A DNA stretch of 35,401 nt from positions 1 through 35,401 of the forward strand of contig JAGWYB010000012.1 in the NCBI GenBank assembly GCA_018969585.1. The letters are read 5' to 3'. The notes under the pieces are model-generated. The model made no database searches and was not told the origin of the DNA. It saw only the letters and a list, made by a program, of their open reading frames with translations. This DNA is from Actinomycetales bacterium (GTDB lineage Bacteria > Actinomycetota > Actinomycetes > Nanopelagicales > Nanopelagicaceae). Of this stretch, positions 5,608 through 10,407 are shown in pieces. The first letter of the stretch is position 1; the number at the start of each line of letters is the position of its first letter. The position numbers were made by a program, and so were the translations under genes.

Positions 5608-6270
5608 ATGCGTTTCAAAGTCGCAACGACGTTTGTATTCTGCTTTGCTCTTTTATCAATAGCTACCCCAGCTAACGCAGATACCAAGGGGAAAAATGGG
5701 GATCGCAATTCAGACGAAGTTATTTGTATCGACGAACTAACGGTATCTAGCGCTAATGAGTCGAAGCGAGTCGCCCTTCCTAGCCGATTAATGAAGCGCC
5801 CACCAAAATTCATAGATCTAATTACAAACTGCGGCGTAATCACAATTCGCCCAGAATTTGGACAAGCGCCGATCGCAGTCACATTTATGAGCTCGCTAGT
5901 CCAACAGAAATACTTTGATCTTACGTCTTGTCATCGTTTAACTACTGATGTCACAAGTTTTATTCAATGCGGTGACCCGACCGGAACCGGAATGGGGGAC
6001 AAAGTCTTTACTTATCAGAAAGAGAATCTCCCTAAGCGTTTTGGAAAATATCGGGAAGGCACGGTCGCCATTCAAAATCGCAATGGGATTAGCAGCCAAT
6101 TCTTAATTTTCTACGAAGAAACAACCCTCTCTCCAAACCATAGCGTCTGGGGACGAGTTGTTAATGGAATTGAAATATTGCATTACATCGCAGAGGGTGG
6201 AATAGATGGCGGCGGTACAGATGGCAAACCAACTAGAAATCTTGTGATTGAAAGAGCAGTCCTTCGTTAA
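5608..6270 (+). CDS. Secreted cyclophilin-type peptidyl-prolyl cis-trans isomerase
   Basis: N-terminal signal peptide; FDLTSCHRLTTDVTSFIQCGDPTGTGMGD...SSQFLIFYEETTLSPNHSVWGRVVNGIEIL matches the cyclophilin fold. Start could also be 5593. Confidence 0.86.
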   Translation: MRFKVATTFVFCFALLSIATPANADTKGKNGDRNSDEVICIDELTVSSANESKRVALPSRLMKRPPKFIDLITNCGVITIRPEFGQAPIAVTFMSSLVQQKYFDLTSCHRLTTDVTSFIQCGDPTGTGMGDKVFTYQKENLPKRFGKYREGTVAIQNRNGISSQFLIFYEETTLSPNHSVWGRVVNGIEILHYIAEGGIDGGGTDGKPTRNLVIERAVLR

Positions 6271-6989
6271 TCAGTATTTACAACTTTAAATACTTCAGCA
6301 ATTCTTCCAGCGACTAATCCATTAGCTTCGCCGTTCTTTTCTCCCCAACTTCTCACCATTGGCTCTAACTCTGGATTATGCGCAGTTTGGCTTACATGTG
6401 CCTTTAGCGCATCCATTTTCTTAGAAAATGTTTCAGTTATATCTACGAAGTGATTTGGCTGCGGTGATCCAGTAATCCAAAGTTCTCTAACTCGCCACGG
6501 TTCAAATCCGGACTCTTTTAAGTCAGTAAATGCATAGGGATTTCTGGCATCCGGATAGACCGCTTGGATTGCGGCCTCTCCGGCGGCAAGATGATCTGGA
6601 TGACTTGCGAAAATTCGCTCCCAGTTTCTCTCTGGTGATTGAACAACCATTCGATCAGGTTTAGCCCTACGAATTTCGCGAACTATTTCTTTACGAAGTT
6701 CTAGCGTTGGAACCAGCGAACCATCACGATAATTTAGATAAGTAACTTGAGAGACTCCTAAGACTTTTCCAGCTTCGCGTTGTTCGCGCTGTCTTACTTT
6801 CGCCATATCTTCTAATGAGAATTCTGACGCCTCGCCTCCTTGATCACCATTGGTAACTATGCAATAGGAGACTTCAATTCCTTTTTTAGTCCAGAGAGCG
6901 ATCGTGCCGCCAGCGCCAAAATCGCAATCATCAGGATGCGCCATCACGACCAAAATACGTTTAATCTCTTCATCTGCTAGCGGAGTCAC
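6267..6989 (-). CDS. PIG-L/LmbE family deacetylase
   Basis: VVMAHPDDCDFGAGGTIALW...HPDHLAAGEAA zinc-binding motifs; GTG start at 6989. Confidence 0.9.
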   Translation of the reverse strand: MTPLADEEIKRILVVMAHPDDCDFGAGGTIALWTKKGIEVSYCIVTNGDQGGEASEFSLEDMAKVRQREQREAGKVLGVSQVTYLNYRDGSLVPTLELRKEIVREIRRAKPDRMVVQSPERNWERIFASHPDHLAAGEAAIQAVYPDARNPYAFTDLKESGFEPWRVRELWITGSPQPNHFVDITETFSKKMDALKAHVSQTAHNPELEPMVRSWGEKNGEANGLVAGRIAEVFKVVNTD

Positions 6990-6995
6990 CGCCGT

Positions 6996-7005
6996 ATTCT
7001 AGACT
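6996..7005. promoter_or_regulatory. Overlapping divergent -10 elements (TAGAAT minus, TAGACT plus) of the PIG-L/pcrA bidirectional promoter
   Basis: ATTCTAGACT: each hexamer lies exactly 6 nt from its start codon (6989 minus, 7012 plus). Confidence 0.55.
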
Positions 7006-7011
7006 TCTAAC

Positions 7012-9240
7012 ATGTCCGAAAGAATGCAAACTTCATTGCTTGACGGACTTAATCCTGAACAACAATCTGCGGTGACCCATGAAGGCGGCCCACTCCTAGT
7101 TGTAGCGGGCGCAGGATCTGGAAAAACGAGAGTCCTCACTCGCAGAATCGCATACTTGCTTGCGAAACGCGGCGTTGAACCATTTGAGATTCTGGCGATT
7201 ACTTTTACAAATAAAGCAGCAGGTGAGATGAAAGAGCGAGTCGCCTCGCTAGTAGGTAAACGAGCAAAAGCAATCTGGGTTTCTACTTTCCACTCTGCTT
7301 GCGTTCGCATCCTTCGACAGGAAGGATCCCGCCTTGGATTCACAACTTCTTATTCAATTTATGACCAATCCGATAGCGTCCGACTCATTACCTTAGTAAT
7401 GCGAGATTTAAATATCGACCAGAAAAGATATAACCCACGAGCTGTTGCGGCACTTATATCGAATGCTAAGAACGAATTACTTGGTCCGGCTGATTATAGA
7501 AATAGCACCTCAACATATTTTGAAGAAATAGTCGCTGAAATCTACGCCGTCTATCAACAGAGATTAACAACATCAAATGCTATGGATTTCGATGATTTAA
7601 TTATGAAGACCGTCGAGGTCCTTCAGAAATTTCCAGAGGCGAGAGCCAGATATCGAAATCGCTTTAAACATATCTTGGTCGATGAATATCAAGACACAAA
7701 CCATGCCCAATACATTCTGATAAGAGAACTAGTCGGAACAAATCGAGAAGAGGTTCCGCCAGCCGAGCTCTGTGTTGTAGGTGATGCCGATCAGAGCATC
7801 TATGGATTCCGTGGCGCCACTATTAGAAACATTCTTCAATTTGAAGAGGACTACCCAGACGCGACCACAATAATGCTGGAACAGAACTACCGCTCGACCC
7901 AGAATATATTAAGCGCCGCCAATTCTGTTATTTCGAAAAATGAATCTCGTAAAGAAAAGAATCTGTGGTCTGAATCTGGAAGTGGCACAAAGTTAATCGG
8001 TTTTGTTGCTGAAAATGAACATCATGAGGCGGAATTTGTAAGAGATGAGATGCGCCGTCTAATTGACGAGGGAGTTTCTCGCTTCGGAGATACTGCAATC
8101 TTCTATCGGACAAATGCCCAATCTCGTGTTTTTGAAGAGACTTTTATGCGCTCTGGAATCCCTTACAAAGTCGTTGGTGGAGTACGTTTCTATGAGCGAA
8201 AAGAAGTTAAAGATTTACTTGCATATCTCCGGGTCTTAGTTAATCCAAGTGATGAAGTTTCGCTACAACGAATAATCAATACACCGAAACGCGGTATTGG
8301 AGATCGAGCTCTAGATGTAATTGGAAACATTGCAAAGTCAGAATCAAGTTCTTTTTGGAGCGCTCTCTCTCGAGCAAATAGTTCGGAGCTGACCCCAAAA
8401 GCTGCGGCCTCAATATCTGCTTTTTTTTCAATGATGAGCGCTCTCCAGGTTCTAGTTGAAGCGAATCGTCCGCCCGCAACAATTGCAGCTGCTGTTTTAG
8501 AACAATCTGGACTTCTATCCGAGTTGCGCGCTAGTGGTGACCCACAAGATGAGGTTCGCGTCGAAAACTTAGAGGAACTAGTAGCCGTAATTGAAGAGTA
8601 TGAAGAGCGAATTGTCGGAGAAGGTGAAACTCCTACGCTTGCTGGCTTCCTTGAAGAAGTCTCACTCGTCGCCGATGCAGATGAAATTCCAGAAGGAGAA
8701 GATCACGGAGGCGTTGTAACTTTAATGACTCTTCACACTGCGAAGGGTTTGGAATTTCCAACCGTATTTCTAACTGGCATGGAGGAGGGAGTCTTCCCAC
8801 ACTCTAGAACTTTGGGCGAGAAAAAAGAGTTAGAGGAAGAACGGCGTTTGGCTTATGTTGGCCTAACTCGCGCAAGAGAAAGACTTTTTCTATCGCGTGC
8901 TGAATATCGTTCTGCATGGGGTGCGCCGAATTACAATCCACCTTCAAGATTTCTTGATGAAATTCCAGATGATTTAATTGATTGGAATAAATCAGCGAGT
9001 GGATTCACAACTCCTCCTATAGTTAGAAGAAAATCGACCACTCCGTCACCAAGAGCTACTGGAAAACAGAGTTCCGCCTTACAACTTGTGATTGGAGATC
9101 GGGTATCGCACGACACCTTTGGCATAGGAACTGTGATTGCTGTCTCAGGTGAAGGAGATAAATCAGAAGCGACTATCAATTTTGGAAGCTACGGAGATAA
9201 GCGTTTGTTGCTCCGATATGCGCCAGTAGATAAGTTATGA
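7012..9240 (+). CDS. pcrA: UvrD/PcrA-type ATP-dependent DNA helicase
   Basis: LNPEQQSAV, GAGSGKTRVLTRRIAYLL, VDEYQDTNHAQY, QNYRSTQNIL, LMTLHTAKGLEFPTVFLTGMEEG, VGLTRARERL. Confidence 0.96.
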   Translation: MSERMQTSLLDGLNPEQQSAVTHEGGPLLVVAGAGSGKTRVLTRRIAYLLAKRGVEPFEILAITFTNKAAGEMKERVASLVGKRAKAIWVSTFHSACVRILRQEGSRLGFTTSYSIYDQSDSVRLITLVMRDLNIDQKRYNPRAVAALISNAKNELLGPADYRNSTSTYFEEIVAEIYAVYQQRLTTSNAMDFDDLIMKTVEVLQKFPEARARYRNRFKHILVDEYQDTNHAQYILIRELVGTNREEVPPAELCVVGDADQSIYGFRGATIRNILQFEEDYPDATTIMLEQNYRSTQNILSAANSVISKNESRKEKNLWSESGSGTKLIGFVAENEHHEAEFVRDEMRRLIDEGVSRFGDTAIFYRTNAQSRVFEETFMRSGIPYKVVGGVRFYERKEVKDLLAYLRVLVNPSDEVSLQRIINTPKRGIGDRALDVIGNIAKSESSSFWSALSRANSSELTPKAAASISAFFSMMSALQVLVEANRPPATIAAAVLEQSGLLSELRASGDPQDEVRVENLEELVAVIEEYEERIVGEGETPTLAGFLEEVSLVADADEIPEGEDHGGVVTLMTLHTAKGLEFPTVFLTGMEEGVFPHSRTLGEKKELEEERRLAYVGLTRARERLFLSRAEYRSAWGAPNYNPPSRFLDEIPDDLIDWNKSASGFTTPPIVRRKSTTPSPRATGKQSSALQLVIGDRVSHDTFGIGTVIAVSGEGDKSEATINFGSYGDKRLLLRYAPVDKL
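9231..9236 (+). promoter_or_regulatory. Putative -10 (TAAGTT) of leaderless sucC mRNA
   Basis: TAAGTT-ATGACCC-ATG, overlapping the 3' end of pcrA; TTGCTC 17 bp upstream. Confidence 0.45.
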
Positions 9241-9243
9241 CCC

Positions 9244-10407
9244 ATGGACCTCTTTGAGTATCAGGCGCGCGATCTCTTTGAGGCAAATGGAGTACCAGTT
9301 CTTGGTGGCGCGGTTGCAACAACTCCTGAAGAAGCAAAGTTAGCGGCAGCAAAATTTGGTGGAAAAGTTGTTGTAAAGGCCCAGGTAAAGATTGGCGGAC
9401 GAGGTAAAGCTGGTGGCGTAAAACTCGCGGAATCTCCTGATGATGCTTTCGAAAAGGCAAAAGCAATCTTAGGAATGGATATAAAAGGACACTTAGTTCG
9501 CAAAGTAATGATTGCTCAAGCAGCTCCAATTGAGAGTGAGTATTACCTCGCAATTCTTCTTGATCGCGCCGCTCGATCCTTTCTTGTCATGGCATCCGTT
9601 GCTGGCGGAATGGATATTGAGGAAGTTGCCCATAAAACTCCCGAAAAATTAGCGCGAGTACATATAAATCCCAATAGTGGTCTGGATAAAGCCAAGGCGC
9701 TGGAAATAGTCCGCGCTGGCGCATTTCCTGGCGATGTTGAAGATCAGGTCGCAGATGTTTTAATCAAACTTTGGGAGACTTTCCAAAAATCAGATGCAAC
9801 TCTTGTCGAAGTAAATCCATTGGTAAAGACTGGTGACGGAAAGATAATTGCACTTGATGGAAAAGTAACTCTTGATGACAACGCTTCTTTCCGGCACCCA
9901 GAATATGAAGCCTTGATTGATCATGCAGCAACGAATCCGCTTGAGGCGCTTGCTAAAGAAAAAGATCTAAATTATGTGAAGTTAGAGGGCGAAGTGGGCG
10001 TCATTGGAAATGGCGCTGGTTTAGTGATGAGTACGTTAGATGTGGTCGCATACGCCGGTGAGAAATATGGAGTAAAGCCGGCTAATTTCTTAGATATTGG
10101 CGGAGGCGCCAGCGCCCAAGTTATGGCTGACGGACTCTCAATTATCTTAGGAGATCCCGCAGTTCGCTCTGTTTTTGTAAATGTCTTTGGCGGAATTACG
10201 GCCTGTGATGCAGTCGCTAACGGAATCATCCAAGCTCTCGAGATTCTTGGCGATAAAGCCACCAAACCTTTAGTAGTTAGATTAGATGGCAATAGCGTTG
10301 TTGAAGGTCGCAAAATCCTGCAAGCTGCGAATCATCCTCTTGTACAACAGCTAGATACGATGGATGGCGCCGCTGCTCGTGCCGCGGAATTGGCGGCACA
10401 ACGATGA
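9244..10407 (+). CDS. sucC: Succinate-CoA ligase (ADP-forming) subunit beta
   Basis: [45 protein letters not shown]. Confidence 0.97.

Follow-up and report, generated by a model that had tools for sequence, protein, structure and literature searches.

The 22-bp spacer CGCCGTATTCTAGACTTCTAAC that separates two divergent genes (positions 6990-7011 of the 35,401-nt window, the whole stretch of DNA that was analysed) is, with a probability of roughly 0.86, a minimal bidirectional housekeeping promoter for two leaderless genes, and we infer that it is transcribed in both directions. Direct reading of the spacer showed a -10 hexamer TAGAAT for the PIG-L gene on the minus strand (6996-7001, read from 7001 to 6996), lying 6 nt before the GTG start codon, and a -10 hexamer TAGACT for pcrA on the plus strand (7000-7005), lying 6 nt before the ATG. 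The two hexamers have in common the TA at 7000-7001, where position -12 of one hexamer pairs with position -11 of the other, and this dinucleotide is invariant in all 23 genomes compared from the genus. An earlier sequence-only reading of this DNA had given the same coordinates, hexamers, shared TA and 6-nt distances, all of which proved exact to the base.

The spacing of the hexamers predicts transcription starts at the first base of the GTG (6989, minus strand) and at the first base of the ATG (7012, plus strand), and the divergent start sites would be 23 bp apart, provided that transcription begins at the start codons. As in bidirectional promoters, the -10 elements overlap on opposite strands, an arrangement kept in 23/23 genomes. 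The sequence-only reading had proposed two overlapping leaderless -10 elements, and had named a 5′ untranslated region with a ribosome-binding site as one of the findings that would count against them. By reading, we detected no Shine-Dalgarno sequence on either strand of the 22-bp spacer, as is typical of leaderless genes. The proposal is further supported by a genome-wide peak of TANNNT at 6 nt from start codons and by the retention of the core in all 23 genomes.

The minus-strand gene (6267-6989, GTG start) encodes a PIG-L family deacetylase of 240 amino acids (PF02585, E 9.6e-30), which scored below all NCBIfam equivalog cut-offs, the nearest being BshB1. The plus-strand gene (7012-9240, ATG start) encodes the DNA helicase PcrA of 742 amino acids (TIGR01073 pcrA, 1008 bits against a cut-off of 911). 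Both start codons are firm, because the TAG within each hexamer closes the reading frame of its gene at codon -4, the active-site motif RILVVMAHPDD of the PIG-L protein starts 10 codons past the GTG, and the second in-frame ATG of pcrA, at 7024, is absent from most relatives, which fixes the pcrA start at 7012.

We propose that TANNNT and its reverse complement ANNNTA overlap in the palindromic TA, such that the main sigma factor could read the core either way. The housekeeping holoenzyme would take one of two orientations and melt the shared TA; RNA polymerase facing one way would start at or next to the ATG at 7012 and transcribe pcrA, and facing the other way would start at or next to the GTG at 6989 and transcribe the PIG-L gene. 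The predicted products are two mRNAs lacking a 5′ leader, with start sites 23 bp apart, and both genes would undergo leaderless translation. Simultaneous binding of two polymerases would be sterically excluded, probably without strong regulatory coupling. The arrangement probably reflects intergenic compaction.

Putative leaderless promoters across the genome

We then surveyed the 1.1-Mb draft genome, all but 1.3 kb of which was covered as contig stretches. Genes were called with a simple script based on an in-frame hexamer score, which yielded 998 genes whose starts depend on the script. Of the 238 genes facing a divergent neighbour, 67 carried TANNNT exactly 6 nt 5′ of the start codon, compared with about 3 at most other distances, with a lesser shoulder at 7-9 nt. 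By these counts, leaderless promoters are a dominant class in this genome. When all genes having an upstream gap were considered, 102/454 carried TANNNT at 6 nt, and the consensus of these 102 leaderless promoters was TAGnCT followed by T. The plus-strand hexamer and the next base, TAGACTT, fit this consensus in full. A 6-nt peak was also seen in a second genus of the family (57/192 genes in 800 kb of one complete genome).

The sequence-only reading had expected any -35 elements to lie inside the opposite coding regions. This point is moot, since no preferred base was found near -35 across the 102 leaderless promoters, as reported for M. tuberculosis (PMC3898074). A sigma-70 scan of positions 6700-7300 with an E. 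coli-type -35 element returned 0 promoters, an expected outcome where the -35 is not conserved.

The 6-nt spacing puts the hexamer in frame with the gene, and 53 of the 102 leaderless genes thereby have a TAG stop at codon -4. We considered whether the G at the third hexamer position serves to place an in-frame TAG stop before leaderless coding sequences, and rejected this idea, as G is about equally frequent at distances of 7-9 nt. The preference for G at these other spacings suggests that the TAG stop derives from the promoter consensus.

Conservation of the two hexamers

Across the genus, the spacer measured 22 or 23 bp in all 23 genomes examined at this locus and both hexamers were kept in every one, the minus-strand distance to the start codon being always 6 nt and the plus-strand distance 6 or 7 nt. 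The conserved core TATYCTAGACTT (6995-7006), that is ATYCTAGACT with one T on either side, was preserved in all 23, with 11 of its 12 columns invariant. The pcrA hexamer TAGACT did not vary, and the minus-strand hexamer conformed to TAGRAT, reading TAGAAT in 9 genomes and TAGGAT in 14. The 23 genomes are phylogenetically related and not independent, and fourfold degenerate sites in the same genomes were used as the control: none of 70 such sites in the two genes was invariant, and the flanks of the spacer were variable as well. The positions that belong to one hexamer only, namely 6996, 6997 and 6999 for the minus strand and 7002-7006 for the plus strand, were all fixed in 23/23 genomes. Since the fixed positions include some used by each strand's hexamer alone, both promoters are constrained; the case for both directions being important rests mainly on this point. 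Judged by conservation, both hexamers are under selection and the locus is functional.

The conserved stretch TCTAGACT might instead be a binding site for a regulator, or another DNA element, and not two -10 boxes. Conservation over 12 bp is high and the palindrome TCTAGA is present in 9/23 genomes, both of which speak for such a site. However, the single variable base of the core keeps TAGRAT and breaks TCTAGA in the remaining 14 genomes, which favours -10 boxes and led us to reject a palindromic operator. In addition, the stretch lies at a fixed place with respect to the two start codons, in keeping with the genome-wide -10 rule, and the damage-type RecA-NDp motif (TTGTCRGTG-N8-TANNNT) is absent from the whole genome. 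We therefore regard a regulator site as highly improbable.

Another explanation is that only the pcrA promoter works, the minus-strand TAGRAT being a by-product of symmetry, and that the PIG-L gene is transcribed from inside pcrA or at a very low level. The distribution of the boxes in the family is in line with this view. A pcrA box (TAGACT or TAGGCT, with TATGCT in one case) was found 6-8 nt from the start in all 11 other genera (12 loci), compared with 2 of the 11 for the A needed by the opposite-strand box sharing the TA, and in those two the PIG-L start is not placed for it. In several other genera, the gap is longer and a Shine-Dalgarno-like AAGGAG, recognised by eye, precedes the PIG-L start. 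Within the genus, however, this view is countered by the invariance of the minus-only positions 6996, 6997 and 6999 in 23/23 genomes, by the constant 6-nt minus-strand distance, and by a PIG-L start codon that stays purine-first (GTG in 20 genomes and ATG in 3), and we consider a lone pcrA promoter unlikely, at odds of well under one in ten. The simplest reading takes the pcrA promoter as old, with the PIG-L promoter presumably joined to it while the spacer was contracting.

Recurrence of the shared TA

TANNNT is a weakly specified motif, which counts against the proposed promoter: by chance, about 1 in 4 such boxes would have the A needed for an opposite-strand box on the same TA. We counted the shared-TA arrangement at all combinations of distances to both start codons. 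At distances of (6,6), (6,7) or (7,6) nt it was found in 7 of 119 divergent pairs, some of which depend on an alternative start codon, and the other distance combinations had a mean of 0.022 pairs per cell. The second genus showed the arrangement in 3/96 divergent pairs (800 kb of one genome). A pattern scan of 24 genomes of the genus returned 55 matches to the 6/6 pattern, 33 to the reversed pattern and 16 to the 5/5 pattern, and is a weaker test, being blind to gene context. The hexamer arrangement at 6990-7011 is not a product of chance.

The six further shared-TA divergent pairs of this genome lie at C31:43905-43926, C31:59620-59641, C10:1619-1640, C32:10714-10736, C9:35842-35864 and C33:22262-22284 of the contig stretches. 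They include pairs that we take, from their translated sequences, to be metF/polyprenyl synthetase and glgC/glgA. The core of the glgC/glgA spacer, AAGAGTATCGTT, was found in at least 13 genomes of the genus. Separately, the same genome holds a divergent spacer of only 17 bp, TCCAATAACCTAGCCCA (C57:16549-16565), with TANNNT 6 nt from both starts. Its hexamers overlap by 5 bases, for a predicted start-site separation of 18 bp, which corresponds to the commonest class of bidirectional promoter; the flanking genes are gcvT-like and leucyl aminopeptidase-like.

On balance, we lean towards the view that merged leaderless promoters are a recurrent solution to compaction in streamlined freshwater actinobacteria, with about 3-6% of divergent pairs packed to 22-23 bp, two -10 boxes placed on one TA, and some pairs (PIG-L/pcrA and glgC/glgA) maintained genus-wide. 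If this is true, merged pairs would tie two transcription units to one melting point, and any operator would have to lie within coding DNA.

Coupling of the two genes and relation to known promoters

The sequence-only reading had also taken the overlap to be a regulatory switch that makes expression of the helicase and the deacetylase mutually exclusive. Its steric premise holds, in that the core cannot accommodate two polymerases together, as stated for this class of promoter (PMC12825309), and competition does occur in E. coli, although only under strong activation of one direction (PMC12825309). Mutually exclusive transcription of the two genes is, however, unsupported. At the five E. coli bidirectional promoters tested, transcription at the basal level was insufficient for competition, and reducing it in one direction left the other unraised (PMC12825309). 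We recognised no operator or activator site in the 22-bp spacer, and glgC and glgA are joined by identical geometry. Because the products of these two genes act in one pathway, alternation is not an obvious purpose of the layout, and their pairing would speak for a shared supply over alternation. The sequence bears no sign of the two genes being expressed in turn, and we consider a switch very unlikely.

Bidirectional promoters in prokaryotes, as described by Warman, Grainger, Wade and colleagues, are defined by start sites 7-25 bp apart (PMC10268837), and the separations preferred in E. coli are 18, 10 and 23 bp, which are explained by shared -10 bases (PMC12825309). The PIG-L/pcrA spacer resembles these promoters (PMC12825309, PMC10268837) in having one pseudo-symmetrical -10 region and, by prediction, divergent transcripts with start sites separated by 23 bp. 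It differs in that both transcripts are predicted to be leaderless, the promoter constitutes the entire intergenic region, and there is no recognisable -35 element.

Of the M. tuberculosis genes that have a primary start, 26% are leaderless; the -10 element is TANNNT, and no -35 motif is found (PMC3898074). Leaderless actinobacterial promoters of this type (PMC3898074; survey in PMC3160421) share with the present locus, on its predicted starts, the last T at -7, a purine start at RTG, and the lack of a Shine-Dalgarno sequence and of a -35 consensus. Here, in contrast, the genome is lower in GC (43%), the consensus leans to TAGnCTT, and two promoters are merged. Closely juxtaposed divergent promoters are common in M. 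tuberculosis (PMC3898074), and prpD/Rv1129c, for example, is likewise a divergent pair with both genes leaderless, the likeness considered here being that of layout (PMC3898074). Every component of the locus is therefore already known, and in a genome of this type their combination is to be expected; the locus is probably one more bidirectional promoter of a familiar type. A literature search found no start-site map for this bacterial group.

The value of the locus lies in its being a clean and conserved bidirectional promoter in which both hexamers are visibly selected and both products are predicted to be leaderless. Because the intergenic region is so short (22 bp), the two directions could be separated by changing single bases that lie outside the shared TA, which would make steric coupling directly testable. 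The genome-wide signal also suggests a rule for annotating these genomes, whereby many start codons can be assigned from a TANNNT that ends 6 nt ahead of them. At the other end of pcrA, the start of sucC lies 3 nt past the pcrA stop codon, with TAAGTT positioned 7 nt 5′ of the sucC ATG (9231-9244 of the window), and sucCD may have a leaderless promoter of its own inside the 3′ end of pcrA.
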